NCBI GenBank assembly: GCA_023137125.1 | Contig: JAGLPW010000057.1 | Span: 1-51,554 of the forward strand | From: Candidatus Cloacimonadota bacterium | GTDB lineage: Bacteria; Cloacimonadota; Cloacimonadia; Cloacimonadales; TCS61 | Direction of reading: 5' to 3' | Length of the DNA: 51,554 nt | Part shown: positions 6,552 to 35,638 of the stretch, one piece after another | Numbering within the stretch: the first letter of the stretch is position 1 | How the letters are laid out: each line of letters starts with the position of its first letter | The notes under the pieces: generated by a model | What the model saw: only the letters and a program-made list of their open reading frames with translations | What the model was told of the DNA's origin: nothing | Databases searched by the model: none | Position numbers and translations under genes: made by a program

Positions 6552-6571
6552 ATTTTAAAAAGGAAGATATT

Positions 6572-8671: not shown

Positions 8672-8675
8672 TAAG

Positions 8676-16925: not shown

Positions 16926-16941
16926 TGGCACGCTATTTGCA
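16926..16941 (+). promoter_or_regulatory. Sigma-54 (-24/-12) promoter
   Basis: TGGCACG-CTAT-TTGCA with GG-N10-GC spacing, 55 bp upstream of the pilin-like start codon. Confidence 0.92.
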
Positions 16942-16996
16942 GTGTAGGGGATTGTGAATTAATGAAGTGAACTTAAAACCAAACTAGGAGGTTATA

Positions 16997-17413
16997 ATGG
17001 GAACACAGCAAATTCTTTTGATCGTATTAAGTGTAATTATCGTGGGTATCGCTGTTGCAGTTGGTATCACAATGTTCAATGCTCAGGCAACGAACTCTAA
17101 CCGTCAGGCAATCATGGGAGACATGAACAACCTGGCATCTTCAGCACTTGCATTCTACAAAACACCAACTACACATGGTGGTGGTGGAAACACATGGGGA
17201 GCGCTAGATAATCTTGGAAATTGGCTTGGTTATGAATGGGATGGTTCTATTTGTACAACTGGCAATGGTACATTTACGATTACAACTAATCTTGACGTCA
17301 TGACAATTGTTGGGCTTGGAACAGAACTTGGCAATGACGGTTCAACCAATGTTAGTGGACAACTTCTTGTTACTGGTGCAACAAGTGGTATCGTAGCATC
17401 TGTGCTTAACTAA
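16997..17413 (+). CDS. Pilin-like protein with N-terminal hydrophobic helix (MGTQQILLIVLSVIIVGIAVAVGITMF)
   Basis: First gene of the T4P-like locus, single N-terminal TM and Gly/Thr-rich C-terminus; lacks canonical G|FxxxE. Confidence 0.72.
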   Translation: MGTQQILLIVLSVIIVGIAVAVGITMFNAQATNSNRQAIMGDMNNLASSALAFYKTPTTHGGGGNTWGALDNLGNWLGYEWDGSICTTGNGTFTITTNLDVMTIVGLGTELGNDGSTNVSGQLLVTGATSGIVASVLN

Positions 17414-17441
17414 TATTATTTAAACGATCAAGTAAACTGAT

Positions 17442-17473
17442 GTAATATGGGAAGACTTGTCTTCCCATATTAC
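17442..17473 (+). terminator. 15-bp perfect hairpin between the pilin-like gene and the assembly genes (attenuator/processing/terminator)
   Basis: GTAATATGGGAAGAC-TT-GTCTTCCCATATTAC followed by TGTATTTTCAAATATTTTTTTATT. Confidence 0.75.
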
Positions 17474-17509
17474 TGTATTTTCAAATATTTTTTTATTCAA
17501 GGATAAAAA

Positions 17510-18853
17510 ATGCAATACGAATTTAGATATCAAGGCATAACTGTTCAAGGTAAAGGTGTTCAAGGAATTGTTTTAGCTTCAAATAAAAGAAAGGCAAAAC
17601 AATTAATCGATGATTTTGCACAGAAGCGTAGGATAAAAATTAATTCCATTCTTAAACGAAGCTTATTTTTATACCGCCTCAGATTACCTAACGGGAAGAG
17701 AGTAAAGGGAAGACAATACGCTTATAAAAAGGGTGAAGTGAGCCGTGCGCTGGCTAATATGGGTCATAAGAATGTCAAGATAGAAAAAGCTTTGATCGAT
17801 ATAAAAATAAAGCCACCATTCGCCAGTATTTTAATGTTTGTAAATTTGAGTTCCTTTCTTCTAAAAGAAAAAATGAGTTATGATAAGATTTTGCGTATGC
17901 TCGCAGATGAAGAAACAAACTTAACTTTAAAAGAATCTTTAAAGAAAATTGAAAGTGATTTAAAAAAAGGAAAGGAAGGAACTGAGGTTTTCGCAAAACA
18001 TCAGGATGTATTTGGGAAATTTCCTGCATATATGCTGGGCTTAGCTACAAAATCTGGTAATATGGCAGAAGTTTATGATGCAACAGCTAAATTTATGGAA
18101 CGTGAAATGGAATACAAGAAAAGTTTGCGACAGGCTATGTTGATGCCGGCTTTTACTGTGCTAGCTATGTTTGGAGCTGTATTGTATTATGTTATTAAAG
18201 TATTTCCAGACACTGCTAAAATGTTCCTAAGATTTGGTATCGACCTTCCACCAATGACTGCTGCAACACTTGATATTAGTGATTTCTTAGCTGTAAACTG
18301 GTGGTGGATAGTTTTAATGGTTGTTATTCCTATAGTTGTAGCTGTACTTTGGTGGCGCACCCCCAAAGGAATGATCTGGCGTGATAAGAATATGATAAAA
18401 TTACCAATTATTGGACATCTTATCCATAAATCCAGTATTGAAATTTTCTTTAGAGTGTTTTCAGCAATCTATGCAGGAGCGGAAAATAATATTGAAACTC
18501 TCACAGCTTCAGCTGAAGCTTGCAGAAATAAATATATGGAAATAGGTGTAAAAGAAATCGCAATCCCCTTAATGCTGAAAGATGGAATGTCACTTGTTCC
18601 TGCGTTAGAAAAAGCTGACGTCTTCAATCAGAGTACATTGAGTCGCTTAAAAACCGGTACTGAATCAGGTAACATTCTTCAATCTGCACAGCAGATAGCT
18701 ACATTTTATGAAAAAGAGACAACTTATAAAATGGAGACGATTATTCAATCCATTCAAGTATTTATTGGTATGTTCATTGCAATAGTTATCACACTTCTTA
18801 CTGTAGTTTCTTCTGAAGTTGCAATGATCTCACCGAATACACCAGGCTTATAA
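17510..18853 (+). CDS. Type II secretion/type IV pilus inner-membrane platform protein (GspF/PilC)
   Basis: LRQAMLMPAFTVLAMFGAVLYYVIKVFP, T2SSF architecture, adjacent ATPase. Confidence 0.9.
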   Translation: MQYEFRYQGITVQGKGVQGIVLASNKRKAKQLIDDFAQKRRIKINSILKRSLFLYRLRLPNGKRVKGRQYAYKKGEVSRALANMGHKNVKIEKALIDIKIKPPFASILMFVNLSSFLLKEKMSYDKILRMLADEETNLTLKESLKKIESDLKKGKEGTEVFAKHQDVFGKFPAYMLGLATKSGNMAEVYDATAKFMEREMEYKKSLRQAMLMPAFTVLAMFGAVLYYVIKVFPDTAKMFLRFGIDLPPMTAATLDISDFLAVNWWWIVLMVVIPIVVAVLWWRTPKGMIWRDKNMIKLPIIGHLIHKSSIEIFFRVFSAIYAGAENNIETLTASAEACRNKYMEIGVKEIAIPLMLKDGMSLVPALEKADVFNQSTLSRLKTGTESGNILQSAQQIATFYEKETTYKMETIIQSIQVFIGMFIAIVITLLTVVSSEVAMISPNTPGL

Positions 18854-18865
18854 TAAGGAGTTATT

Positions 18866-20650
18866 TTGATAAGGAAATCCAGATTTGGTCAGTTATTACT
18901 AAGAAAAGAAATAATTGACCAAAAAACAATGGATAAAGCACTTATCATTCAAGCTGAAGAAGATCCTTCTAGCCCTAGAGGATTGGGTGAAATACTGGTC
19001 GATGATTTTAAGATAAACCATCATGCTATTTATGGTTTGCTTGCAGAACTTTATGCTTTTCGTTCAATTGAAATTAATGTAAATGAACTTGATAGTAATC
19101 AAACTAAACATACAAAAGAAATTTTGTCAAAGTTTACCGACGAATTTAAAAAAGAATTAATTTATAAAAAAATCCTTCCATATCAGGTTACTTATGGAAG
19201 GCGCAATACGCTCATAGTTCTGGCAGCTGACCCTACCGATAAAATTACTGAGCGAATTCCAGTTTATTCTGAATATAAAAAATATGAAGTTGTATATTGT
19301 AAATTAGAGACATTAGATGAATTAATTGAACTTGTAGCACCGCAGAAAAACGAATTTCTAGATTTACTTCAAGAAGCTGAAGAACAAATAGAAGAGATGG
19401 ATGAATCAAAATCCGAAACGGATGTTGATGAATATGCACTTGATGAAGAGATAAATAAAAGTCTTCTTGTAAGCTTATTTGAAGGTTCGTTAATAGAAGC
19501 TGTACGTAAAGGTGCCAGTGATATTCATATAATACCATTCCGTAGAGCATCTGTCGATTTTTATTTCAGAATTGATGGAAAGCTTATCCATTGGCACAGA
19601 CAAGAGAGAACATCTCCTGAGGCGATATCTGCTGTTGTGAAAGATAGAGCTGTGGGTGTAGACCGTTTTGAAAGAGATACTGCTCAAGACGGATTTATGC
19701 AAAGAGTGATCGACGACCATCTTATCCGTTTCAGAGTTTCAATTATCCCAATTACTTCATCTGAATATGAAAGAAGATTTGAAAGTATTGTTATTAGAAC
19801 AATTGATGACAGGAATGTTATAACAAACCTCAGAAAACTTGGTTTTCAGACTAAAGCCGAAAATGACTTCCTAAAATCTATCAGCAAATCCAAAGGTATC
19901 ATTCTGGTAACTGGACCTACAGGTAGTGGTAAATCTACAACTTTAATGGCAGCTCTCTATCATATTATTAATCCTGCTATCAATGTTCTAACAGTTGAAG
20001 ATCCGGTCGAGTACCATATTAAGGGTGCAAGACAACTAAAGATCGGAAATAGGTTTACCTTTGATTCTGCCATCCGTTCTATACTCCGGCATGACCCTGA
20101 CGTTGTTATGGTTGGCGAGATCCGTGACAAGATCACAGCTGAAATTGCTATCAAGCTGGCAAACACCGGACATCTTACATTTTCTACATTGCATACAAAC
20201 GATGCACCCAGTGCAATTTCTCGTATGTACAAAATGGGAGTAGAAACATTCCTACTTGCATACGCAATAAATATTATTATTGCACAACGTTTGATAAGAA
20301 AACTATGCCCTGAATGTAAAAAACCAATCTCTAAAGAAAGATGGTCGGCAGCCCTCGAAATGGGAATTACAGAAGAAGAACTTAAATCCGGTAAAATATT
20401 CGAAGCTGGAGAGGGTTGTAAGAAATGTAATGTTGGATATAAAGGTAGAACCAATATTTGTGAAGCATTATATTTTACACCTGAAATAAGAAAAGCTATT
20501 GTTGAATCGGGTGAAGAAATAGATGAAGATGAGATTCGTGAAATTGCCGAAGGTCAGGGAATGCTGTCATTGATGGATTCCGGATTAGATAGGATCCGAT
20601 CAGGAATGACTTCAATTGCCGAAATAACTTACGCAACATCGGAGGATTAG
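18866..20650 (+). CDS. GspE/PilB-family assembly ATPase; TTG start
   Basis: GPTGSGKSTTLMAAL Walker A, LTVEDPVEYHI Asp box, HDPDVVMVGEIRD Walker B, STLHTNDA, zinc motif CPEC...CKKC. Confidence 0.95.
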   Translation: MIRKSRFGQLLLRKEIIDQKTMDKALIIQAEEDPSSPRGLGEILVDDFKINHHAIYGLLAELYAFRSIEINVNELDSNQTKHTKEILSKFTDEFKKELIYKKILPYQVTYGRRNTLIVLAADPTDKITERIPVYSEYKKYEVVYCKLETLDELIELVAPQKNEFLDLLQEAEEQIEEMDESKSETDVDEYALDEEINKSLLVSLFEGSLIEAVRKGASDIHIIPFRRASVDFYFRIDGKLIHWHRQERTSPEAISAVVKDRAVGVDRFERDTAQDGFMQRVIDDHLIRFRVSIIPITSSEYERRFESIVIRTIDDRNVITNLRKLGFQTKAENDFLKSISKSKGIILVTGPTGSGKSTTLMAALYHIINPAINVLTVEDPVEYHIKGARQLKIGNRFTFDSAIRSILRHDPDVVMVGEIRDKITAEIAIKLANTGHLTFSTLHTNDAPSAISRMYKMGVETFLLAYAINIIIAQRLIRKLCPECKKPISKERWSAALEMGITEEELKSGKIFEAGEGCKKCNVGYKGRTNICEALYFTPEIRKAIVESGEEIDEDEIREIAEGQGMLSLMDSGLDRIRSGMTSIAEITYATSED

Positions 20651-20653
20651 ATC

Positions 20654-21088
20654 ATGAATATCCAAATGTTATTAGTCTTATTAGCTTTAGCGATTTTCTC
20701 AACAATGCTATTAAATACTTATAGTATTGTACTTGATCAATCAGGTTTGGTTTATGATAATATACTTTTTCTGCAGGGACAAAAAATTGCTGACCAATAT
20801 TTTCAGCGAATCGAAGCAGAATTATTGGGAGATCCTCCTATTTTTAGTTTTTCAGCAATCAATTCAATTTATTCAAATATTAATGAAACCATTACAGTGA
20901 ATAATGTTATTTATAATGTTCAAATTATTACAACTTATTGTGACAGTTTGGGAAATGTGCCTTATGCTGATACTTTATTCCAAAAAGTAGATATACAGAT
21001 GAACTGTTTATCAACATCATTGGATACACTACATATTGGAACATTAACTTCTCCATTTAGTAAAGTTTTCATTTATAGAGGATTTTGA
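20654..21088 (+). CDS. Pseudopilin-like protein
   Basis: N-terminal TM MNIQMLLVLLALAIFSTMLLNTYSIVLDQ, position in operon. Confidence 0.55.
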   Translation: MNIQMLLVLLALAIFSTMLLNTYSIVLDQSGLVYDNILFLQGQKIADQYFQRIEAELLGDPPIFSFSAINSIYSNINETITVNNVIYNVQIITTYCDSLGNVPYADTLFQKVDIQMNCLSTSLDTLHIGTLTSPFSKVFIYRGF

Positions 21089-21687
21089 TTATGGCAAGTT
21101 TATTAGATGTATTAGGGGCAACAATTGCAGGAAGCTTGGTTCTACTGATGATATTCACTTCACTTTTCAACATACAAGTAATAAGTTATAATACTCAGCT
21201 ACAGATAGGTTTAACTAAGATGTCTGAAGATTTGATTACAGGACGAAGAGTAGGCGGCATAGACCAGCCCGGGATAGAAAGCATTTTATCAAAGGTTGGT
21301 GCAGGAGTTTCACCATCAACCGATCCGATCATAGAAGCCACTTCTACAAGCTTTAAATTTCTAGGACAAATTAATCCGACTTCCGTTATCAGCACTTTCT
21401 ATTTTGTGCAGGAAAGCGAAACTAGCGATGGCTTCCCTTTATATGTCTATCAAAACGATATGTCCAATCCGTTCTTAGGTCCTTTCTGGCTGGCAGACAC
21501 ATTGGAAATTACGTATAATGACTTTAATAATAATGTAATTAATACTCCAGATTCAAATCATGATATGATTCGTTCAATTGAGGTCAATCTTACTTTCTTC
21601 TATAATACTTACCAACCAGATATAGATAAAAGGTTAATTAGGCATAATGTCGTATTTTGGAAATATTTCAAAAATTTGTATTTGTAA
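21085..21687 (+). CDS. Pseudopilin-like protein
   Basis: MASLLDVLGATIAGSLVLLMIFTSLFNIQVISYNTQLQ N-terminal TM; overlaps preceding stop. Confidence 0.55.
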   Translation: MIMASLLDVLGATIAGSLVLLMIFTSLFNIQVISYNTQLQIGLTKMSEDLITGRRVGGIDQPGIESILSKVGAGVSPSTDPIIEATSTSFKFLGQINPTSVISTFYFVQESETSDGFPLYVYQNDMSNPFLGPFWLADTLEITYNDFNNNVINTPDSNHDMIRSIEVNLTFFYNTYQPDIDKRLIRHNVVFWKYFKNLYL

Positions 21688-21710
21688 ATAAATTATTAAA
21701 GGAATTTATT

Positions 21711-22607
21711 ATGGGAAAATTATTAATCATTATTGTATTAATGTTCACAGTTGTTTTTGCGACTATTATTGTTGCGGTTCAAGACAAAAGTGCTGATATC
21801 CCTGAACTAATATCTTCTAATATGGCAGAGATAAAAGCTAAATCCTTAAGCAATGAAGCTCTTATGTATAGTATTAAGAAACTGATTGAGGGTAGTTTAT
21901 CGGTAGCTGGATCTGATTTAAGCCAACCATTTACGGGATTTAACGTTCTAGATGGAACAATAGACAGTATTAAATATGTGATGGTTGGTACTGGTGATAC
22001 TCTGCAAATAACTTCTTATGTAACTGCTAATGTAAATGGTAAAGATTCCAAATATCAGGGATCCGCTAAAATTATTTATTCTTCTGGAAATTTTAACAAC
22101 GTCTTGACCTGTTCAAATGAACTTAGCGTTACAGGAAACTCTACAGTAATTGGAAATGTTGAGGATGAAGTTGATGATCTAGATTTTGAAACTGTTTTCG
22201 GCATGACAATGGCGCAAATGAGAGCAATAGCAGACAATGATTATACGAATCCACCAAATAATGTAGATCCTGTGAATGGTATTACTTTCATTGAAACTAC
22301 AGGTAATAATAAAGTACACTTCACTAACCATCATTGGAGTGGAAGCGGTATATTGATAGTTGATGGAGAATTTGACATGACAGGTGGAACTTTTGATGGT
22401 ATAATCTGGGTAGAAGGCGGGAGATTTATGATAACGGGTAATGGACTTGTACGAGGATCAATTTTTATTAACAGTGAGCCTGAAGAACAAAACAAAGTTA
22501 CCGGAAATTGTGATATTTATTATGATGAAACTATTGTACAAACCTTCTTGAGTACATACAATATAACCTCAGGTCCTACAATCAATATTATAAATTGGAA
22601 TAATTAA
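21711..22607 (+). CDS. PilX-like/beta-helix-type pilus-locus protein, copy 1
   Basis: MGKLLIIIVLMFTVVFATIIVAVQDKS...GSGILIVDGEFDMTGGTFDGIIWVEGG; SD AGGA before ATG 21711. Confidence 0.62.
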   Translation: MGKLLIIIVLMFTVVFATIIVAVQDKSADIPELISSNMAEIKAKSLSNEALMYSIKKLIEGSLSVAGSDLSQPFTGFNVLDGTIDSIKYVMVGTGDTLQITSYVTANVNGKDSKYQGSAKIIYSSGNFNNVLTCSNELSVTGNSTVIGNVEDEVDDLDFETVFGMTMAQMRAIADNDYTNPPNNVDPVNGITFIETTGNNKVHFTNHHWSGSGILIVDGEFDMTGGTFDGIIWVEGGRFMITGNGLVRGSIFINSEPEEQNKVTGNCDIYYDETIVQTFLSTYNITSGPTINIINWNN

Positions 22608-22640
22608 ATAATAAGAAAAAATGTTATATGGAGGTAGTTT

Positions 22641-23543
22641 ATGGGTAAGATGTTAATCGTCGCATTATTAGTAATTGGTTCCATTTTCGTGCTGATTATT
22701 CTTTCAGTTCAAGATAGAACCGAGGAAGTTCCTGAGCTTTTATCCAGTAATCTGGCAGAATTACAAGCTAAAGCACTGTGTCGTGAAGCATTGGTATATG
22801 GCATGAATAAAGTCAATGACGGGTCTGTAATAACCTCTCCGGGAACTAATACTCGAACGTACCCAAATTTGGAAGTTTTGGATAGCACAATAGACAGTAT
22901 TCAATATATATCGAACGCCACAAATGATACTATAGAAATTAGTTCATACGCATCTTATCAAGTAGGTGAAGATATCTTTCAACACAAAAGTACAGCGGTT
23001 GTATATTGGGCTCCTATTGGTGCTCAAGGTGCAATGTATGCAAATGGAGATATTACGGTAAGCGGTAGTGCTGTTGTTGAAGGTAATCTTTTTAAAAATA
23101 GTAATCCTCGATTAGATTTTGAAGAGTTATTCGGAATGACAAAAGCAGAAATGGAAGCTATTGCCGATACAGTTCTAGTAGACCCCGGACCTAATCCTAC
23201 GGGAATTGAAGATATTACCTGGGTTAATGGAAATTTGCAGGTAACATCAACTGGTTGGGCTGGAAGTGGAATACTTGTCGTCGATGGTAATGCCCATTTT
23301 ACAGGTGGTACATTCACAGGGATTATGTGGATCACTGGAAATCTAATCATCAATGGTAATAATGGTTTTTATGGTGCTGTTTATATTGAGGGTGGATTAA
23401 TGCTTGAGGATATTGAGGACGTTAATGTACTCGGTGACTGCCTAATCGTTTATGATGTTGAGGCAATAATTGCTGCATTTGCAGATGTATCTTTAGTATT
23501 AGAATATGAAATCAAAATTTTTAGTATGTTTGAAGATGATTAA
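22641..23543 (+). CDS. PilX-like/beta-helix-type pilus-locus protein, copy 2
   Basis: MGKMLIVALLVIGSIFVLIILSVQDRTEEVPELLSSNLAELQAKAL, GSGILVVDGNAHFTGGTFTGIMWITGN; paralog of the previous CDS. Confidence 0.62.
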   Translation: MGKMLIVALLVIGSIFVLIILSVQDRTEEVPELLSSNLAELQAKALCREALVYGMNKVNDGSVITSPGTNTRTYPNLEVLDSTIDSIQYISNATNDTIEISSYASYQVGEDIFQHKSTAVVYWAPIGAQGAMYANGDITVSGSAVVEGNLFKNSNPRLDFEELFGMTKAEMEAIADTVLVDPGPNPTGIEDITWVNGNLQVTSTGWAGSGILVVDGNAHFTGGTFTGIMWITGNLIINGNNGFYGAVYIEGGLMLEDIEDVNVLGDCLIVYDVEAIIAAFADVSLVLEYEIKIFSMFEDD

Positions 23544-23560
23544 ATCAATTTGGAGAAAAT

Positions 23561-24469
23561 ATGAATGAAAATGATCTTTCCAATCATGAGATTGAGACCT
23601 ATAAATGGTGGTCTAAAGTACGCTGGTTTATTGTCCTTATCCTATTTGCTATTGGAATCTTGCGTGTAACTCAAATTAATCAAACTTATCCGATTGTAAT
23701 ATTTGTAGCAACATTTCTGGGAATATGTATTCTTAATGTCCTGTTTCATCTCCAGATCATAAGAACAAACACTCTCTTTAGTTCATTGCAAATAGTACTA
23801 GATATTGTTTTTGCTACAGTTATAGTTCATCTTACCGGAGGGTTGGAAAGCTCTTTTGTTTGGATATATCTAATAGCTGTTATTACAGCAAGTCTAGCTA
23901 TAGAAAATTCTGGTGGAGTCCTTGCTGCAATGATTGGCAGTATGTGTCTATTGGTGTTAATCTTGATGTATAACTTTGGTTGGCTGAATCCTATTGATGG
24001 TGCAGAATTTAAAGCTGATATCCCTACACAAACAATTTTCCTCATCTCTTATACTGGTCTCTTCAGTGGTATTGCTTTCATATCAAGTTATACAAGTAGC
24101 ATAATGAAAAAATATTCTACTTCTTCAAAAAAAAGCACTAAGTTTGTAAATGAGCAGAAAATCGAGCTTTCCGTAAAAGAAGAGGAACTAATAAACAATA
24201 AAAAGCTTCTTGAAAAATATCGAGAAGTTGTTCGGGAATCTGCTATAATTTCCAATTTAGACCACGATCTTAACAATCCTCTTACTATCATCTCTCTATC
24301 GATTCGAAGAATTATTAAAGCCGCATATGAATATAATGATGATAAATTAGAGAAATCTGGTAACCAAATGACTGAATCAGTTAATAAGATTAATGAGTTA
24401 CTAATAAAATTCCAAAAATTAAAACAGCTGGATTTGATTCAAGAAGAACGAAATAAACAACAAGGATAA
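23561..24469 (+). CDS. Membrane protein with DHp-like histidine motif and no HATPase domain
   Basis: Multi-TM N-terminus; SNLDHDLNNPLTIISLSIRRI H-box; ends about 70 aa after the H-box. Confidence 0.72.
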   Translation: MNENDLSNHEIETYKWWSKVRWFIVLILFAIGILRVTQINQTYPIVIFVATFLGICILNVLFHLQIIRTNTLFSSLQIVLDIVFATVIVHLTGGLESSFVWIYLIAVITASLAIENSGGVLAAMIGSMCLLVLILMYNFGWLNPIDGAEFKADIPTQTIFLISYTGLFSGIAFISSYTSSIMKKYSTSSKKSTKFVNEQKIELSVKEEELINNKKLLEKYREVVRESAIISNLDHDLNNPLTIISLSIRRIIKAAYEYNDDKLEKSGNQMTESVNKINELLIKFQKLKQLDLIQEERNKQQG

Positions 24470-24472
24470 ATT

Positions 24473-25324
24473 ATGAAAAAACATATATTGATTGTTGATG
24501 ATGAACAAACAATTCGAGAATTATGTAAAGAGCTTCTTGTAGAAGAGGGCTATGAAGTAACTCTGGCTGTAGATGGACAGGATGCTCTTGATAAGATGGA
24601 TTATGAAATATTCGACCTGTTCCTGATAGATATGGCAATGCCGCGCATAGGTGGATTGGAACTAATGAAGATGATCAAACGAAAGCAACCACTTGCTGTA
24701 ATTGTGATCCTCACGGGTTTTTCTAGTATCGAAGGAGCGGTAAAAGCTGTACATGCTGGTGCATTCCAATACCTCTCTAAACCTATTAATTCTGAAGAAC
24801 TTTTTGAAGTTGTAAAAGTAGGAGTCCAACATTCAAAAGACCTTTATGGACCATTGCAAAAAGCATTTGAACCGGGAGCGGATACAGTTCAAAAAGGTGA
24901 GCCTATTATACTACATGGATTCTCTCCTGAAGATAAAGTAGATTTTATGGCTTTAGGAAGAGTCAGAAAATATGAGATCGGTGATGATATCCCTATTAGT
25001 AATGAAAAATCCGGATCTATTATTATTATTGAAAACGGTGAAGTTTCTGTTTGGCTTAATAATACAACTATCGATTATTTGCAAAAGTGGGATTCTTCTG
25101 GTGAAGAGAGCTTTATTCTCACTGGATCTACATTTGTTACATTGCGTGCAGAAACAGCTGTAAAAGTAAGACACTTCGATAGAAAGAAGATACTGGATTT
25201 CTTTGCATATAAAGGTGAGAAATTACTTAAACGTTTCATGATTAATCTTGTGAATAGCACTTTCTTTAAGTGGCGTAAAGCAGTACAAAGAATTGTAATG
25301 TTGAAGCTGGTTACAGGAGAATAA
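24473..25324 (+). CDS. Response regulator: REC plus CRP/cNMP-binding-like C-terminal domain
   Basis: ILIVDDEQTIRELCKELL...LIDMAMP...ILTGFSS...YLSKPI; C-terminal beta-rich IIIIENGEVSVWLNNTTIDYL; no recognisable HTH. Confidence 0.8.
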   Translation: MKKHILIVDDEQTIRELCKELLVEEGYEVTLAVDGQDALDKMDYEIFDLFLIDMAMPRIGGLELMKMIKRKQPLAVIVILTGFSSIEGAVKAVHAGAFQYLSKPINSEELFEVVKVGVQHSKDLYGPLQKAFEPGADTVQKGEPIILHGFSPEDKVDFMALGRVRKYEIGDDIPISNEKSGSIIIIENGEVSVWLNNTTIDYLQKWDSSGEESFILTGSTFVTLRAETAVKVRHFDRKKILDFFAYKGEKLLKRFMINLVNSTFFKWRKAVQRIVMLKLVTGE

Positions 25325-25351
25325 CTTTAATTAATTAGAGTTACAAATTCT

Positions 25352-25379
25352 AGCTTCCTATTATATAGGAAGCTTTTTT
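25352..25379 (+). terminator. Rho-independent terminator of the first pilus-locus operon
   Basis: AGCTTCCTAT-TAT-ATAGGAAGCT followed by TTTTT. Confidence 0.9.
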
Positions 25380-25526
25380 GTTATATAATGCTAGTTTTAT
25401 CTAGTTCTATATCCATCTTCAATTATTTTCTTTTATATCATGTAGTTATGAAATTTATTCGATTTCTTTAATACCTACATATAATTTCTATATCTCTCTA
25501 AAACTTAGTGAGTTAACAAAATGTAC

Positions 25527-25554
25527 TTGACACTATTATGAAAAAACTTATTCA
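25527..25554 (+). promoter_or_regulatory. Putative sigma-70 promoter for the pilT-like operon
   Basis: TTGACA (25527-25532), 16 bp, TATTCA (25549-25554); consistent with start at ATG 25595. Confidence 0.4.
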
Positions 25555-25594
25555 TTGTTACAGAAAGAATTTTTTTATATTTATCGGAGATCGT

Positions 25595-26812
25595 ATGGGT
25601 TTGTCGTTTTTAGCTGAGATGCAAGTTGCATTAAGTGAATATCTCACAGGTACGTCAAGATTCCAGAATATAAACAAAATGATTACATTCAACGCAGCCT
25701 GGAAGGAAGAAGCGTATGAATGCTTGCGTACATTAATGGTTCACATGAGAGATATTGAAGCTTCAGATATAGATTTCGGCGGACCAGGATCTAATGGTAA
25801 AATATGGTATAGAGTTTATGGCACAAAAGCACCTTCTGATAAAGTCCCCAGTTTTACACAGGATGAAATCACTGCAATTTTATTAAGTATATTAAGTGAT
25901 GATCAAAAAGTAATGTTATTTAATAATAAAAATGTTGATATTTCCTTGGGGTTAATTCTCAAAGAAGGTGAGCGACCAAATCGTTTCCGTGGTGACATTT
26001 ATTATGAGAGCAATACATTAGTTGCAAATTTCCGTAGAGTTAACCAAGAACTTTTTAAACTTGAACAATTAGATTTTCCTGATATAATCAACAAACGATT
26101 CAATCTTAATTTTGAGAAATCAGGATTGTTTCTTGTTACAGGAATTACAGGTTCTGGTAAAAGTAGCACTTTAGACTCAATTATAGATATGAACAACAAG
26201 AAAAATCATGCTCATATCATAATAATTGGAAATCCAATTGAATATGTTCATAAATCTATTAAGTCAATTGTTAGACATAGAGAAATCGGTGAAGATGTGT
26301 TAAGTTTTCAAGAAGGTACTATTCAAGCATTGAGACAGGATCCGGACATCATTGTTGTTGGAGAAATGCGAGATCCAGGAACAATAGCAACAGTGTTAGA
26401 AGCAACTGATAGTGGTCATAAAGTTTTTTCTACATTACACACAAGTTCTGCTGTAGATAGCCTTCACAGAATTGTTGCCGAGTTCCCACCTATTGAACAG
26501 GAACGCGTTAGATTCCGTCTTGCTGATACTTTAAAAATAATTATTTCACAGAAACTCGTTCCAGATAAACATGGTAAACTTGTTATGGTTAAAGAAATTC
26601 TTTCGGTAGACTCGTCTGTTCAGGCTGCAATAAGGAACAAAAATATTGGTGAAATATACCAGATGATTACTGAAGGTAAGAGAAAGGGGATGATATCAAT
26701 GGAACAAGAACTTTTTACAAATTTTAAAAAAGGTATTATCGCGAAGGACGTAACTATGAATTATGCAAATAATAAAAAGCGAATGAAACACTTGCTAACG
26801 TATTCAGCATGA
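25595..26812 (+). CDS. PilT/PilU-like retraction ATPase
   Basis: GITGSGKSSTLDSII, LRQDPDIIVVGEMRD, STLHTSSAVDSLHRIV; Asp box altered to IIGNPIEYVH. Confidence 0.88.
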   Translation: MGLSFLAEMQVALSEYLTGTSRFQNINKMITFNAAWKEEAYECLRTLMVHMRDIEASDIDFGGPGSNGKIWYRVYGTKAPSDKVPSFTQDEITAILLSILSDDQKVMLFNNKNVDISLGLILKEGERPNRFRGDIYYESNTLVANFRRVNQELFKLEQLDFPDIINKRFNLNFEKSGLFLVTGITGSGKSSTLDSIIDMNNKKNHAHIIIIGNPIEYVHKSIKSIVRHREIGEDVLSFQEGTIQALRQDPDIIVVGEMRDPGTIATVLEATDSGHKVFSTLHTSSAVDSLHRIVAEFPPIEQERVRFRLADTLKIIISQKLVPDKHGKLVMVKEILSVDSSVQAAIRNKNIGEIYQMITEGKRKGMISMEQELFTNFKKGIIAKDVTMNYANNKKRMKHLLTYSA

Positions 26813-26822
26813 GAGATAAATA

Positions 26823-28937
26823 ATGGCAAAAAATAAAGAAAAACTTGCATTCGGAATTTTTAAAGACGGGCTGAAAGTAAAGATAGCACAGCTTGCTCTT
26901 AGTAATGGTATTGTTATTGTTCAAAGTCTTGAAGAATCTATCTTATCTTCTGCACTCTTCCGTCAAGAAGTGGAAAATAAAGAAGATGCTTTTGTTCCCG
27001 ATGAGACCGGTGAAGATGAGATCGAAATTCCAGAATTAACTGAAATTGAAGATGATGCTTTCTCATTACCAGAGATGTCTGAGTTTGAAGATACTGAGGA
27101 TTTTGATAGTTCAGAAAAAGATGATATGCTACCTGGTCTGCGTGATTTGCAGAATTTTCTTCAGCAATTCCCACTTGAAAAAGGACGAATATCTTTTAAT
27201 GCAAATAATGAGCAAATCTCATATTTTCAATTTGATTCTTCTTACGGCACAAGAAATCTACATAAACGCCTTCTAGAAGAGTTGTTGTCAAAAGATGAGA
27301 TCAAGGCTAAGAACTATTCTTTCGATTATATTCTAAATTCTGATAAATCTGGGCTTGCCTTTATTCATACCGGCAAATTCAGACTTTTTCATGCATTGAG
27401 AGACATCAATCTGATACTATCAAAAGAAAAATATTTTTATAGTTGTATTGATACAAATGATATATGCTTAATAAATGTTGTTAATCACAATTATGTTTTC
27501 TCTGAAGATGATTATGTTCTAATATTATACATCGGATTTGATTACAAAGTTGGTATCGTTTTGAAAAACGGTATGCATATCAAAACATTCCCTATTATTG
27601 TTCCTGACAGTGATGAAATAACTATGAGGGAGACAATCTACTCTAAAGTACTACTGGAACAAGATATTTCTAATATTCCTATAACAAGAAATATTCTTTT
27701 AGTTGGTGATAGCACTTCCGATGAGGATTTGGAATATTTCCGTTCCGCTTCTCAAGAAGGCGATAACATAGCAAGGATCGATCTTGGTCATCTATCTGTT
27801 CAAGAAGGAATGGAAGAGAAGATAACACCTGAAAAAATTGCCCGGTATGCCATTCCAATTGCTTTAGCATGGAAAACCTTAGTACCAAAGAGTAAAAAGT
27901 TCAGCTCCACAAACTTACTACCTAACAGAGTAATAGAGAATCAGAAGTATTTTAAAATTGCCTGGCACGGTTTTTTAGTTCTGGCCGCTATCTTCTATTT
28001 TGCTTTTGCTGGAACTATTAAAAATTTGGAACTGAAACAGGATATAATTGATTATGGGAAAAAGAATTATACAATTGAACGAGAACTTTCAAGAAACCGT
28101 GAACTAATAAAACGACTCAATGAGATTAAGGCTAGATTAAATGAACTTCAAGCAAATCTGCTCAAAGTAGAAAATATTACAGGAAATAAAAATCAATGGA
28201 ACCATATTCTCGATGTGTACTCTAGATCTCTTAATAAAAACAGGTTGAGCTGGCTCAGGGATATCTCAAGTAATAACGATGGATTTACTGTTGATGGTTA
28301 TACTATGAATAGACGTGCTGTGATTGCTTTCTCTCACCTCTTTCCTGAGAGTAAGATTGCAAGTGTAGCAAAACATGAAGAACAGGAGCATACGATCTGG
28401 AAATTCAAAATTTCCAGTAATTACCCTGATCCAGAATCTTGGAAAAGTGTTGGAAAGGAAAAAATAGAAATTGAAAAACCTGTTCAACAGGAAGAAACGG
28501 AAAAACCAATTGTCGATGAAATAGAGAAAGAATCTGAAACGGAAGTAATTACCGAAACTCCTGAAGAAATTAACGAAAAATATCATTCCATACTTACATT
28601 ATATTTTTCTGGAAATATTAATAATGCATTTGATAAATTCAGTGAATTCATAAAAAGTTATCCACAACATAAAAAGGCATATAATGCCAAATATTTCAAG
28701 GGTGAATGTTTATACTTAATGAATAGATTCCCTGAAGCAAGAGAAACTTTAACAATGGTTTATAACCTTAACGGCAGCAAATCTCCAGATGCACTCATTA
28801 TGTTGGGTAATTGTAGTGAGAAAGAAAATGATCTGAAATCAGCAATACAATATTGGAACACACTAATTGAAAAATATCCTGATAATGATCTATCAAAAGC
28901 AGCACATTATAAGATAGATAAAATAGAAGGTAAATAA
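26823..28937 (+). CDS. Fused PilM-PilN-TPR pilus alignment protein
   Basis: PilM-like N-terminal half, internal NLLPNR motif then TM and coiled coil (PilN-like), Glu/Pro linker, C-terminal TPR/YbgF-like repeats. Confidence 0.75.
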   Translation: MAKNKEKLAFGIFKDGLKVKIAQLALSNGIVIVQSLEESILSSALFRQEVENKEDAFVPDETGEDEIEIPELTEIEDDAFSLPEMSEFEDTEDFDSSEKDDMLPGLRDLQNFLQQFPLEKGRISFNANNEQISYFQFDSSYGTRNLHKRLLEELLSKDEIKAKNYSFDYILNSDKSGLAFIHTGKFRLFHALRDINLILSKEKYFYSCIDTNDICLINVVNHNYVFSEDDYVLILYIGFDYKVGIVLKNGMHIKTFPIIVPDSDEITMRETIYSKVLLEQDISNIPITRNILLVGDSTSDEDLEYFRSASQEGDNIARIDLGHLSVQEGMEEKITPEKIARYAIPIALAWKTLVPKSKKFSSTNLLPNRVIENQKYFKIAWHGFLVLAAIFYFAFAGTIKNLELKQDIIDYGKKNYTIERELSRNRELIKRLNEIKARLNELQANLLKVENITGNKNQWNHILDVYSRSLNKNRLSWLRDISSNNDGFTVDGYTMNRRAVIAFSHLFPESKIASVAKHEEQEHTIWKFKISSNYPDPESWKSVGKEKIEIEKPVQQEETEKPIVDEIEKESETEVITETPEEINEKYHSILTLYFSGNINNAFDKFSEFIKSYPQHKKAYNAKYFKGECLYLMNRFPEARETLTMVYNLNGSKSPDALIMLGNCSEKENDLKSAIQYWNTLIEKYPDNDLSKAAHYKIDKIEGK

Positions 28938-28939
28938 AA

Positions 28940-29821
28940 ATGAATTATGCTTTAAGAAATACTTTGATACTTTCAATCTTATTGGTCCTAGTTATTCTGG
29001 GTTTTCTGCTTGGAAATACATCTTCAGTAAAAAAAGTCAAAGTGATTAAAACTGCTTATGAGAATAACCTAAAACAACTAAATGATCTAAAGGCAGCACA
29101 TCCTGATATGAAAAATCAAGACCTTTTTATTCAATCTTTAAAGGATCTTGAAGAAAAAGTTCGAAGAGAAAGCAAGCTCATTCCTCAGAAAAATGATCCA
29201 ACGATAACTTATAAATATCTGCTGGATATTTGTGATAATTTCTGCCCTGATTTAAAATTCAATTTTGTATATAATAAATTAAGCAAAACCGAGGAAACTA
29301 GTTTTTATTCATTTACAATTCAGGGTGTTGCACCAATACGCTCTTTTTATACTTTTATTTATCAAATCGAAAGCCAGTATATGCTCTATATTATCGAATC
29401 ATTAAAGATCAATGAAGAAATAAAAGACGATGTTTCAACGGGTGACGTTAAATTCGTCATTGTTCTCAATGCATATTTTGATGAAGCCACAATTGAAATT
29501 GGTGATATTCCATTTAGAACATTAAAATACAAGAATGTAGCATATGATCCTTTCTATTCTAGAATTCATGCACCTTTAATCGATGAAAAAGAGCAAGAAT
29601 TCTTAGATCTGAATTTTTCTGGAATGATTGGATTAACACCCAATAAAGTATTTATGAAAGATGAAATTGGCAGGATACATATACTCGAAATTGGTGATAG
29701 AGTAGCGTATGGAACTCTCAAATCTATTAATTGGAAAGGACAATTTGCAACATTCCAATTGAATGAAATTGGTATAAATAAAGATAAAAAGATTTATTTG
29801 AATGAATTAAAAGAGGAATAA
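28940..29821 (+). CDS. PilO-PilP-like fusion
   Basis: N-terminal TM and coiled coil (PilO-like), C-terminal RIHILEIGDRVAYGTLKSINWKGQFATFQLNEIG (PilP/GspC-like). Confidence 0.68.
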   Translation: MNYALRNTLILSILLVLVILGFLLGNTSSVKKVKVIKTAYENNLKQLNDLKAAHPDMKNQDLFIQSLKDLEEKVRRESKLIPQKNDPTITYKYLLDICDNFCPDLKFNFVYNKLSKTEETSFYSFTIQGVAPIRSFYTFIYQIESQYMLYIIESLKINEEIKDDVSTGDVKFVIVLNAYFDEATIEIGDIPFRTLKYKNVAYDPFYSRIHAPLIDEKEQEFLDLNFSGMIGLTPNKVFMKDEIGRIHILEIGDRVAYGTLKSINWKGQFATFQLNEIGINKDKKIYLNELKEE

Positions 29822-29823
29822 AA

Positions 29824-31005
29824 ATGAAGAAATTAATTAGCTTTCTTATTCTCCTGTGTTTTGTCCTAACCTTATTTGGTCAGGAAGAGAACATTAAAAT
29901 CATCCCCGAGGAAGAGTTGATCACGATCTCCCGTGAAACAAATTTTGCTGCCGCCCTTAGGGCCATCGAATATCTTTCTTTGGATTTTGCAGGAAAGAAT
30001 ATTTTGAATACAAGTATCTTCAATAACCCAATTGGGATCCCGATCAAAGAACTTCAATGGAGAGATGCACTGAATCTGATCATAAAATTTCATAATCTTG
30101 TTCTGGAAGAACGTCCTGCTACATTTGTTGTGAAAGATGTTGATGTTATTATAGATGAATCAGGGGAAGAAGTTGGGATTAAAGAAAAAGTAACAGTATC
30201 TACCAACCAGGTTCGGATAAGTTCAATCTTCTTTAAGGCAGATAAAACTCTAATCAATGAAGTAGGAATTGACTGGACTACTCTTATAGGTGGAGAGGTT
30301 AATGCTGAAGTAAATTTAAATACCACAAGTAATTTAACAACTGATATTCTTAGTGCAAGTTTAAATAGAAATTTTCAGACAGGTAATGTCACAATAGATC
30401 TGAATACATTGTTGAAAATTATTGAAGCTAATCAAAAAGGTACAATAATTGCCAGACCAAGTATAACTGTGATATCCAAAAAGAAAGGTTTTATTCAAGT
30501 TGGACAGGACTTCTCTGTAAAAACACTTGATCAAGCCGGAAATACAACCGAGAAATTCTTTGAAACCGGTATTATCATGGAAGTAACTCCTGAAGTGTTA
30601 GTTGAAGATGATAGAAAAGCAATATATCTTTCCGTGGAAGTTGAAAAAAGTACTGCTTTACCCGGTGATCTTTCAACAGTCATTGATAAAAGCAAATCTA
30701 ATACAGAAGTTTTGTTATTTGACGGTGAGGAAACAGTAATTGGCGGACTTTACGATAAAGAGATTCAAGTTGGTCGTGGTGGAATCCCAATACTAAAAGA
30801 TCTTCCATGGTGGTTCTTTGGTCTAAAATATCTTTTTGGATATGAGACTAAAATGGTAGTTACTAGAGAAATGATAGTAATTGTTAAAGTTGAAATAATT
30901 GATTCTGTAGATGATCGAAGAAAACTTGATAAACCTACAGAAGAACAAATAGATCAAGAAAGAAAAGATATGAAGAGAGCTGAAAAACTATTTATGAAAG
31001 AATAA
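29824..31005 (+). CDS. Short secretin (PilQ/GspD-like)
   Basis: Signal peptide, STN-like N domain, ARPSITVISKKKGFIQVGQDF...TGIIMEVTPEV...NTEVLLFDGEETVIGGLY...GGIPILKDLPWWF. Confidence 0.88.
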   Translation: MKKLISFLILLCFVLTLFGQEENIKIIPEEELITISRETNFAAALRAIEYLSLDFAGKNILNTSIFNNPIGIPIKELQWRDALNLIIKFHNLVLEERPATFVVKDVDVIIDESGEEVGIKEKVTVSTNQVRISSIFFKADKTLINEVGIDWTTLIGGEVNAEVNLNTTSNLTTDILSASLNRNFQTGNVTIDLNTLLKIIEANQKGTIIARPSITVISKKKGFIQVGQDFSVKTLDQAGNTTEKFFETGIIMEVTPEVLVEDDRKAIYLSVEVEKSTALPGDLSTVIDKSKSNTEVLLFDGEETVIGGLYDKEIQVGRGGIPILKDLPWWFFGLKYLFGYETKMVVTREMIVIVKVEIIDSVDDRRKLDKPTEEQIDQERKDMKRAEKLFMKE

Positions 31006-31024
31006 TTTATAAGATAAAAAAAAA

Positions 31025-31054
31025 GACCGATTCTCTCGAATCGGTCTTTTTTTT
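31025..31054. terminator. Bidirectional terminator between convergent secretin and threonine aldolase genes
   Basis: A-run GACCGATTC-TCTC-GAATCGGTC T-run. Confidence 0.92.
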
Positions 31055-32757: not shown

Positions 32758-32796
32758 TTTGTGAATTGTAGTGTATGGAAATTAAGGACGGCGACC

Positions 32797-33258
32797 ATGA
32801 AAAACAACATATTAAAACACAGAACAGATGATACTATCTCAGATCTTTTTCATTGTAAAATTTCCATCTCCTTGCCAAGACCTCTTCTTGGAAATGAAGT
32901 ACCTGTGGGCTTTCCTTCTCCCGCACAAGATTACATCGAAGAAAATCTTGATCTAAATGAGCATCTCATTTCTCACCCTTCGGCAACATATTTTGTAAAA
33001 GTTGAGGGATATTCCATGGTAGATGCAGGAATTTATCCGGGTGATATTCTCATTGTTGATAGAGCCGTAGAACCAGCTCACAAAAAGATTGTGATTGCTA
33101 TAGTTGACGGCGAACTTACGGTAAAACGTCTTTATAAAAAAAGTGGGAAATGGTTTCTTGCTCCTGAGAATCCCGAATTTGAGCCTCTAGAAATTACTCG
33201 CGATATAAATTTCCATATTTGGGGAGTAGTCATCTATTCCATTCATAAGATGAGATAA
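32797..33258 (+). CDS. umuD: UmuD-like S24 peptidase/DNA pol V subunit
   Basis: GFPSPAQDYIEENLDLNEHLISHPSATYFVKVEGYSMVDAG...DGELTVKRL; Ser and Lys of the dyad present. Confidence 0.92.
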   Translation: MKNNILKHRTDDTISDLFHCKISISLPRPLLGNEVPVGFPSPAQDYIEENLDLNEHLISHPSATYFVKVEGYSMVDAGIYPGDILIVDRAVEPAHKKIVIAIVDGELTVKRLYKKSGKWFLAPENPEFEPLEITRDINFHIWGVVIYSIHKMR

Positions 33259-33260
33259 TA

Positions 33261-34541
33261 ATGGTAAAAAATACCGTCGCGTTAGTTGATTGCAACAGCT
33301 TTTATGCTTCCTGTGAAAAAGTATTCAATCCGGATATTGCAGATAAACCGGTGGGGATATTATCTAATAATGACGGTATCATTGTAGCGCTTTCCAGCGA
33401 ATTGAAAAAACTGGGAATTTCCCGTGGTGCTGCTGCTTTCAAAATCGATAAGCGTTTTATAAGAAAACATGGCATTAGGTTACTCTCCTCAAATTATACA
33501 TTATACGGTGATATGTCTACCAGAGTTATGGATACATTATCAATGTTTACACCAGATCTTGAAATATATTCTATTGATGAAGCATTTTTGTCGTTGAGAG
33601 GATTTGAGCATCTGAACCTGACTGACTATGGCAGGCAGATGAAGAAAACTGTGCGGCAACATACGGGATTACCGGTTTCTGTTGGTATTGGTTCCACTAA
33701 AACTCTGGCAAAAATTGCAAATCGTTTTGCTAAAAAGCATAATTTTACAGAAGGTGTTTTTGACATTACCAATCACCCAGATAGAGATAAAATATTACGC
33801 TGGGTTGATGTAGAACATATCTGGGGAGTGGGAAGACAATATGCCAAAATGCTGCGTCGCAATGGGATCATAAATGCGTATGAACTCACTCAAGTTCCGG
33901 ATAATTGGGTGCAAAAGAAAATGACTATCGTTGGTCTACGTTTAGTAAAAGAGCTACGTGGAATATCCTGTATTGACTTAGAAATGGATATAAAACCAAA
34001 GAAAGAGATCGTGTCATCCAAATCATTCGGTAATCCAGTAACCGAACTGCAAGACTTAATGGAAGCAACTTCCGATTACTGCAGTGTAGCTGTGAAGAAA
34101 CTGCGTTCCGAAAACCAGGTAGCTTCGCTTATTATTGTATTTCTTTCCACAAACCGATTTAAGAATGAACCGCAATATGCAAATTATGCCAAAGCACGTC
34201 TTCCTCTCCCCTCTGGCTACACACCGGATTTTATACATGCTGCTAATAGAATCTTGAAGAAGATCTACCGCCCCGGATACAAATATAAGAAAGTTGGCGT
34301 GATGCTTGCAGATATCATGCATCAAAGCAAAGCCCCGCTCGATTTCTTCCAACCTACATATCTGGATGACCACCGAAAAATTATTATGGACTGTATGGAT
34401 AGTATTAATGAGAAAATGGGATTACATAAACTTACCTATGCTTCTGCCGGAATAAAAAAGCCGTGGCAGATGAAGAGAGAACAACTTACTCCCAGCTATA
34501 CGACAAGTTGGAAACACATCCCGGTGGTAAAAGCAATATGA
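33261..34541 (+). CDS. umuC: Y-family DNA polymerase V subunit UmuC
   Basis: VALVDCNSFYASCEKVF, YSIDEAFLSL, GIGSTKTLAKIANRFAK. Confidence 0.95.
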   Translation: MVKNTVALVDCNSFYASCEKVFNPDIADKPVGILSNNDGIIVALSSELKKLGISRGAAAFKIDKRFIRKHGIRLLSSNYTLYGDMSTRVMDTLSMFTPDLEIYSIDEAFLSLRGFEHLNLTDYGRQMKKTVRQHTGLPVSVGIGSTKTLAKIANRFAKKHNFTEGVFDITNHPDRDKILRWVDVEHIWGVGRQYAKMLRRNGIINAYELTQVPDNWVQKKMTIVGLRLVKELRGISCIDLEMDIKPKKEIVSSKSFGNPVTELQDLMEATSDYCSVAVKKLRSENQVASLIIVFLSTNRFKNEPQYANYAKARLPLPSGYTPDFIHAANRILKKIYRPGYKYKKVGVMLADIMHQSKAPLDFFQPTYLDDHRKIIMDCMDSINEKMGLHKLTYASAGIKKPWQMKREQLTPSYTTSWKHIPVVKAI

Positions 34542-35638
34542 CAAAAATAAGAAATATCATTCACGTAGACATGGACGCATTCTTTGCTGCTGTATACATT
34601 CGAGATCATCCGGAAGTTAAAGGCAAACCAGTAATCTGCGGAGGACCGGCAAACAGCAGGGGTGTAGTTTCTACCTGCAGTTATGAAGCTCGAAAATATG
34701 GTATCCACTCTGCCATGCCCAGTTTCAAAGCCCATAAATTGTGCCCACATGGCATCTTTGTAAAACCAGATTTTGATGCAATCCGAGAAGTTTCTGAAAT
34801 CGTACGAAAGATCTTTTATGAGTATTCTGATTTAGTAGAACCAGTTTCAATTGACGAAGCATATATTGATGTAACAGATAATAAAAAGGACATTGCATCA
34901 GCTACTCAAATTGCGATTGAGATAAGGAGAAAGATCTTCAACAAAACCAGGCTCACAGCCTCAGCAGGAGTTTCCTATAATAAATTCCTGGCAAAAATAG
35001 CTTCCGATATGAACAAACCTGATGGGTTGATGGTAGTTACCCCTTTGAAGGCAAGACAAGTGCTGGAGGAACTTCCTATTGGAAAATTTCACGGAATTGG
35101 AAAGGTGAGCGAAAAGAAAATGATTATGCTGGGAATAATAACTGGTAAAGATCTGAAAGAGCGGACATTGAAAGAATTGATGAAGCATTTTGGGAAGGTT
35201 GGAAGTTATTATTACAATATTGTACGTGGAATTGATGACAGAGAAGTGACTACAGAGAGAATTAGAAAATCTTTGGGACATGAACGCACATTTGCAAAGG
35301 ATATAAGTGATGTAAATAAAATGGTGGAGATCCTTATTAAGCTCGCTGATAAAATAAGTAAACAGATGCAGGAAAGAAAATTCAAAGCAAAAACTTTGAC
35401 ATTGAAAATTAAATATGCAAATTTCGATCTTGTGAGCAGAAGTAAAACCCTTGATATCTCGTTTGATAAAGAAAATGTGATCAATCATCTGGGAAGAAAA
35501 ATGCTCCTGGAAACTTTGGGACCTAAATGTAAAATTAGGCTTTTGGGTTTGAGTGTTTCTAATCTTGTGTGGGAGAATGATAAAAGTGATGAACAAGAGC
35601 TTTTTACGTTTTTTAGATCAGAGATGCCGATAATTTGA
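34538..35638 (+). CDS. dinB: DNA polymerase IV (DinB)
   Basis: IIHVDMDAFFAAVYIRD, VSIDEAYIDVT, SAGVSYNKFLAKIASDMNKPDG; ATGA overlap with umuC stop. Confidence 0.95.
   Translation: MTKIRNIIHVDMDAFFAAVYIRDHPEVKGKPVICGGPANSRGVVSTCSYEARKYGIHSAMPSFKAHKLCPHGIFVKPDFDAIREVSEIVRKIFYEYSDLVEPVSIDEAYIDVTDNKKDIASATQIAIEIRRKIFNKTRLTASAGVSYNKFLAKIASDMNKPDGLMVVTPLKARQVLEELPIGKFHGIGKVSEKKMIMLGIITGKDLKERTLKELMKHFGKVGSYYYNIVRGIDDREVTTERIRKSLGHERTFAKDISDVNKMVEILIKLADKISKQMQERKFKAKTLTLKIKYANFDLVSRSKTLDISFDKENVINHLGRKMLLETLGPKCKIRLLGLSVSNLVWENDKSDEQELFTFFRSEMPII

Follow-up and report, generated by a model that had tools for sequence, protein, structure and literature searches.

Textbooks call the trimming of pilin leaders by a prepilin peptidase essential, and bacterial pilins almost invariably carry Glu as residue 5 of the mature protein (Glu5). 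Reviews take the class III signal peptide as the defining mark of type IV filaments and place a dedicated prepilin peptidase in the conserved set of components (PMC4471445, PMC6668835); the shortest class III leader given in the first of these has 6 residues (PMC4471445). Here, we analyse a locus of the type IV pilus type, whose 13 genes all lie on the plus strand, at positions 16926-31005 of a 51,554-nucleotide stretch of DNA (the window) that is one whole contig of a Cloacimonadota genome (2.93 Mb, 86% complete). The locus departs from the textbook definition in signal peptide, Glu5 and prepilin peptidase, yet, judged by homology and layout, it works as a type IVa pilus (T4aP) does. It is a real and widespread variant machine and apparently an undescribed one, as the original prediction from this DNA had proposed; no description of leaderless pilins or of this gene cluster was found in the open-access literature, most subscription papers and preprints lying outside that search. 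Of the departures which that prediction listed, the gene fusions and the lack of PilD in the window proved to matter less than the leaderless pilins.

Like the T4aP of Pseudomonas, Myxococcus and Geobacter, the system comprises PilB, PilC, PilT, a PilMNOP-type complex, PilQ and a set of minor pilins, with the pilin fold and a sigma-54 promoter ahead of the pilin gene. Unlike them, this locus encodes neither a class III signal peptide nor a major pilin with Glu5 and has no local PilD, and Ignavibacteria-class carriers of the system usually have no PilD genome-wide; PilM-PilN and PilO-PilP are fused, and a HisKA-only protein and a protein with receiver (REC) and cyclic nucleotide (cNMP)-binding-like domains lie inside the operon. 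With type II secretion systems (T2SS), it shares the core ATPase, platform and secretin, and a PilM+PilN architecture as in GspL; it differs from them in having PilT, leaderless pilins and a PilO-PilP fusion in place of separate GspM and GspC, and the canonical T2SS-like locus of the same genome is separate, with its GspE in another branch of the ATPase tree. MSHA pili (MSH) also have no peptidase gene in their locus, and are thought to borrow PilD from another system in the genome (PMC6668835), whereas the pilins described here have no leader, and the genomes often hold no PilD that could be borrowed. Similarity to the pilus-associated cluster Amuc_1098-1102 of Akkermansia is weak: the PilM-like model for the Amuc_1101 family recognises the PilN portion of the PilM-PilN fusion (NF045709, E 0.002), Amuc_1100 matches the PilO fold, and Amuc_1101 is possibly a precedent for fusing PilM to PilN.

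The major pilin gene (16997..17413, plus strand) has the Shine-Dalgarno (SD) sequence AGGAGG directly upstream. Its product, which begins MGTQQILLIVLSVIIVGIAVAVGITMF, opens at the initiator Met (MGTQQILLIVL...) with no class III signal peptide, gave no N_methyl match in a domain search, and has Q4/Q5 in place of Glu5. Among 113 pilin relatives, M1 is conserved in all 113, G2 in 109, Q4 in 109 and Q5 in 108; an in-frame stop lies no more than five codons upstream in 61 of the 113 and no more than eight in 81, and an SD-like motif precedes the start in 108. Seven pilin paralogs use GTG or TTG exactly at the M1 position, so this position is Met only as the initiator. Together, the conserved M1, the SD, the upstream stops and the GTG/TTG starts indicate that no leader is encoded. 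We rejected a missed upstream start with a hidden leader on the grounds of the stop codons, the SD position and the GTG/TTG starts. We conclude that the major pilin is encoded without any leader peptide.

Four minor pilins show the same leaderless trend. The N-terminal pattern marks the first as PilV/GspI-like (20654..21088, plus strand; relatives begin MNLLEMVLALFAV or MGTGQMLLVLLA) and the second as PilW/GspJ-like (21091..21687, plus strand; MASLLDVLGATIAG). The third, beginning MGKLLIIIVL (21711..22607, plus strand), has a PilX/GspK-like N-terminus, a putatively beta-rich C-terminal part and a weak bactofilin match (E 0.06); the fourth, beginning MGKMLIVALL (22641..23543, plus strand), is its paralogue. 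Two of these starts are corrected: the gene at 21085 most likely begins at ATG 21091, and that at 21657 at ATG 21711. A Pfam search of the minor pilins returned nothing decisive, and a PDB sequence search with the PilW-like pilin no useful match. The five pilin-like proteins without a prepilin site that the original prediction had listed are borne out as leaderless by starts conserved among relatives. We also checked the minor pilins against the register expected if methionine aminopeptidase removes the initiator Met, with a mixed outcome. PilW-like proteins carry an acidic D/E at residue 6, which is position 5 after Met removal, in 42 of 43 cases, and PilV-like proteins have an acidic residue in 12 of 42, some reading MNLLEMVLALFAV with Glu at 5 counting Met.

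The MG[TQ]QQ protein is probably a pilin, to judge from the agreement of independent lines of evidence. Its AlphaFold2 model (75 sequences; predicted local distance difference test score (pLDDT) 92.3) has a helix at residues 2-55 followed by a beta-sheet, which in this predicted structure amounts to the long N-terminal helix and beta-sheet head of the pilin fold. The top Foldseek match is the full-length mature PAK pilin 1oqw (prob 0.99, TM-scores 0.61/0.59, 143 columns). In a profile search of PDB sequences, three Geobacter PilA entries came top (E 0.011, 0.047 and 0.11), and pilin profile residue 7 aligns with residue 6 of 2m7g, placing Gly2 at residue 1 of the mature chain. An exact match to a sigma-54 (-24/-12) promoter, TGGCACG-CTAT-TTGCA (16926..16941, plus strand), lies 71 nt before the pilin start, where our scan, with one mismatch allowed, expected 0.17 matches in the window; its first base is the coordinate at which the original prediction had begun the locus. 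Sites with at least 9/10 of the consensus occur in 49 of 113 (43%) pilin upstream regions, versus 1.2% of control regions. Between the pilin gene and pilC, a 14-bp hairpin (17442..17473, plus strand) is a probable attenuator, and folding of this intergenic region has z < -2 in 85% of 60 loci (median -4.35, with shuffles that preserve base content only). Both promoter and hairpin are what one would expect around a pilA gene. The window's pilins match none of the curated Pfam or NCBIfam pilin models, probably the reason that they have escaped notice. It is unlikely that our A1 (leaderless major pilin) profile catches ordinary pilins, since G063, G068 and G072, Cloacimonadota genomes carrying canonical N_methyl prepilins, give no A1 match.

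Further leaderless pilin genes lie outside the locus in the window's genome (C3:58-474 and C3:3815-4249, with weaker matches on C196 and C199). In genome G083, nine leaderless major-pilin genes stand in near-tandem upstream of pilC (L127:215-10423 and L174), among 15 matches genome-wide, in what looks like an expansion of the pilin repertoire. Two histidine kinases and a sigma-54 activator with a receiver domain are encoded at 4641-10082 of the window; these regulators possibly act on the pilin promoter at 16926.

Synteny in related genomes, which the original prediction had named as a check, was found: the gene order (pilin1, pilC, pilB, four pilin-like genes, PilS-like, REC-cNMP, pilT, pilM-pilN-TPR, pilO-pilP, pilQ, where TPR denotes tetratricopeptide repeats) recurs identically in relatives at family, order and class level. 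Within the stretches examined, the core pilin-pilC-pilB-...-pilT-pilMN-pilOP-pilQ is also present in named genomes outside Cloacimonadota: Ignavibacteriota are represented by Stygiobacter electus (L136) and Melioribacter (L134), Kryptoniota by L137, Calditrichota by L133 and Neomarinimicrobiota by L114. The pilin gene precedes pilC-pilB as the first gene in five phyla. Two contigs labelled Deltaproteobacteria (L097 and L120) carry the locus as well, by mis-binning or horizontal transfer; the PilB of L097 groups with Calditrichota. A plasmid-borne system was rejected, PilMN and the pilin having no plasmid match. For Melioribacter roseus, pilT, pilQ, pilB and pilC were reported with no pilA or pilD, and the set was judged probably incomplete (PMC3534657). 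Melioribacter loci L128 and L134 carry the system described here, and its leaderless pilin is likely the missing pilA of M. roseus.

We surveyed 195 genomes of the Ignavibacteria class, each at least 95% complete. A leaderless pilin was found in 110, a strong PilB/T-type ATPase in 111 and both in 109 (Fisher p 9e-52). One ATPase-positive, pilin-negative genome, G171, has GspE-like ATPases and no pilus locus in the stretch examined. In G171, G143 and G264 (L168, L175 and L176, respectively), GspE-like ATPases adjoin receiver-domain genes, again with no pilus locus in the stretches examined. The presence of a leaderless pilin in 109 of 110 cases together with the ATPase bears on the idea that these loci are relics left by decay of leader and peptidase, with PilB, PilC, PilT and PilQ put to another use and the MGxQQ protein being some membrane protein of unrelated origin. 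The failure of curated models to match the window's major pilin would fit such an idea, but the N-terminus is near-invariant, the operon position is conserved across phyla, and the protein combines a predicted pilin fold with a sigma-54 promoter. Already disfavoured by this conservation, the relic explanation seems to us barely credible.

An A24 prepilin peptidase was not found in 98 of the 109 Ignavibacteria-class genomes that have both leaderless pilin and ATPase. The same search succeeded for 12 of 14 control genomes, among them archaeal ones, so such negatives are informative. Four of the 98, G227, G251, G254 and G133, are essentially single-contig assemblies (3.3-5.2 Mb). In the whole set of 195, it occurs in 11 genomes and N_methyl prepilins in 13, and all 11 peptidase-positive genomes also carry canonical N_methyl prepilins. 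Among Calditrichota with a leaderless pilin, the peptidase was not found in three of six; among those without, it was present in 16 of 18. The simple explanation that PilD is encoded elsewhere holds for most Cloacimonadota and fails for most Ignavibacteria-class genomes. The original prediction was correct that the window contains no prepilin peptidase, but this has little weight alone, since the genome has one elsewhere. The PilD homolog that it had suggested looking for is a single A24 peptidase on C43, in a separate canonical T2SS-like locus beside canonical GspE, GspF and a secretin-like gene; the genome's one canonical N_methyl prepilin is on a contig other than C43. In a same-genus relative, GspG-type prepilins share a contig with GspD/E/F and PilD. 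The PilD of Cloacimonadota appears to belong to this second, canonical system. In Cloacimonadota genome G026 (99% complete), we found no peptidase and no N_methyl prepilin, and two machine loci with leaderless minor pilins; these loci, L054 and L055, are two different copies.

We think it very probable that the locus encodes a complete machine for a retractable, T4aP-like filament, whose major and minor pilins are translated in mature form. Their synthesis would begin at the residue that processing exposes in other pilins, leaving neither a leader to remove nor any need for a prepilin peptidase. In the mechanism that we envisage, the sigma-54 promoter and attenuating hairpin would yield abundant pilin and less of the machine, and the pilins would enter the inner membrane N-in/C-out through their N-terminal helix. 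Methionine aminopeptidase would then remove the initiator Met of the MG... pilins, leaving Gly where the classical Phe1 lies, as the register with Geobacter PilA suggests. By homology, PilB and PilC would polymerise the pilins, PilMN and PilOP would connect the platform to PilQ, and PilT would retract the filament. A broader reading is probable, if less so: that the type IV filaments of a broad clade, spanning no fewer than five phyla (Cloacimonadota, Ignavibacteriota, Kryptoniota, Calditrichota and Neomarinimicrobiota), have given up both class III signal peptide and peptidase, that removal of the initiator Met takes the place of leader cleavage, and that Glu5 and PilD-dependent N-methylation are dispensable for polymerisation. 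If this is true, a widespread lineage shows that leader cleavage and its peptidase are not needed for type IV filament assembly, and the pilus gene sets published as 'incomplete', the one from M. roseus for instance, are explained. The N-terminal signature of leaderless pilins would help to find missing pilins, and the roles of leader cleavage, N-methylation and Glu5 would become testable in natural systems without them.

Several observations weigh against these readings. The proposed filament is deduced from gene sequences and structure predictions; the major pilin has a Foldseek E-value of 0.046 and a profile E-value of 0.011; several PilD-negative genomes are fragmented assemblies; and the major pilin of G026 was not found by the A1 profile. 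N or Q stands at residue 2 in 8 of 24 aligned PilW-like proteins, which should retain their Met. PilD is present in 56 of 61 Cloacimonadota, the window's genome included, so that processing of the pilins is possible in these bacteria; G2 equals the Gly-1 of prepilins in its invariance, and cleavage after MG may occur in PilD-carrying genomes. These last two points would suit a pathway in which PilD or an unrecognised peptidase cuts the pilins after Gly2 (MG|TQQ), the leader being merely extremely short, as would the conservation of G2 in the MG[KR] minor pilins. We regard this as improbable: besides the 98 Ignavibacteria-class genomes that combine pilin and ATPase with no A24 peptidase found, and the tracking of PilD with canonical prepilins in that class (11/11), the compact Stygiobacter locus holds no peptidase gene, residue 2 of the PilW-like minor pilins is mostly S or N rather than G, and such a leader would be shorter than any in the review cited above.

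The core machine parts named in the original prediction stood up to domain searches. PilC (GspF), the inner-membrane platform (17510..18853; PF00482, T2SSF, E 4.6e-22), and PilB, the assembly ATPase (18866..20650; PF00437, T2SSE, E 3.5e-99), supply the polytopic platform and ATPase that characterise type IV filaments. A PilT-type retraction ATPase follows at 25538..26812 (PF00437, E 7e-36; TIGR01420 304.5 bits, slightly under the curated cut-off of 319.1), and the secretin PilQ is short (393 aa; 29824..31005; PF00263, E 1.3e-27). All four are on the plus strand. The PilMNOP alignment complex that accompanies PilQ is present as two fusion proteins. The first (26823..28937, plus strand) joins PilM, PilN and C-terminal TPR repeats: a PilN-type NLLP motif stands directly before its transmembrane helix, the Myxococcus xanthus PilN chain matches profile positions 380-499, and a PilN Pfam match was obtained in 5 of 29 members. 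In classical systems, the NLLP motif of PilN binds PilM; position and this motif suggest that the N-terminal half is PilM. The predicted one-protein PilM+PilN+TPR arrangement therefore holds for the window's open reading frame (ORF), although the TPR part varies among relatives: the proteins of Ignavibacteria, Kryptoniota and Calditrichota are ~510-540 aa long, with no room for it. Given these short forms, the fusions look ancestral to the machine and the TPR part an addition. The second fusion, PilO-PilP (28940..29821, plus strand), was confirmed by its AlphaFold2 model (pLDDT 84), for which Foldseek returned PilO (3jc8_Oa, 5uvr, 2rjz) and PilP (3jc8_Pa, 2y4y) structures, all with probability 1.00; Pfam gave nothing decisive and a PDB sequence search no useful match. 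Assembly artefacts were rejected, the same ORFs being present in about 60 loci. GspL of the T2SS is a known PilM+PilN fusion, so that the PilM-PilN fusion is only moderately new. We conclude that both fusions are real and precedented in part.

The resemblance of PilMN to GspL also raises the possibility that we are dealing with a T2SS-like pseudopilus or a system for secreting proteins rather than a surface pilus, in which case the leaderless pilins would still apply. Type II secretion was suggested by the Melioribacter authors (PMC3534657), and the so-called Cytophaga T2SS clusters with T4aP, labels being fluid in that region of the tree (PMC6668835). However, a PilT-type ATPase is present in nearly all complete loci, the locus has no GspG-type prepilin, some genomes hold many tandem major pilins (L127), and a separate canonical GspD/E/F/PilD-type locus exists in the same genome. 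In the ATPase tree, the locus PilB stands apart from that genome's canonical GspE; canonical GspE sequences form a supported group (97/91), and the forks around the PilBs of leaderless systems are settled only in part. A secretion machine is therefore an unlikely alternative that still deserves consideration, and an adhesive (surface attachment) or twitching pilus is the likeliest function of the leaderless filament, with DNA uptake or secretion possible.

The ATPase-less kinase-like and receiver proteins that had been predicted inside the locus are supported by domain matches. A PilS-type sensor with six transmembrane segments (23561..24469, plus strand; PF25323 E 9e-11) has a HisKA domain (PF00512 E 1e-4) and no ATPase domain, and its phosphoacceptor H235 is kept in 39 of 41 proteins. 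The next gene (24473..25324, plus strand) encodes a response regulator receiver (PF00072 E 1e-29), with D53 kept in 45 of 46, joined to a cNMP-binding-like domain (PF00027 E 1e-5). In Cloacimonadota, the two proteins probably form a local phospho-signal that acts on the pilus.

A terminator-like hairpin at 25352-25374, between the REC-cNMP gene and pilT, suggests that pilT-pilQ may form a separate transcript. After the secretin gene lies an intrinsic terminator-like stem of 17 pairs (31017..31054, reported on the minus strand), which is symmetric and could terminate transcription from either side. Elsewhere in the window, 32761-35638 encodes an S24 (UmuD-like) peptidase and then two Y-family polymerases from neighbouring genes, whose ORFs overlap at 34463-34541, probably because the second polymerase gene starts further downstream. 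Finally, a 1004-aa protein encoded at 48325-51339 joins a peptidase MA domain, PD40 beta-propeller repeats and an Omp85-type barrel.
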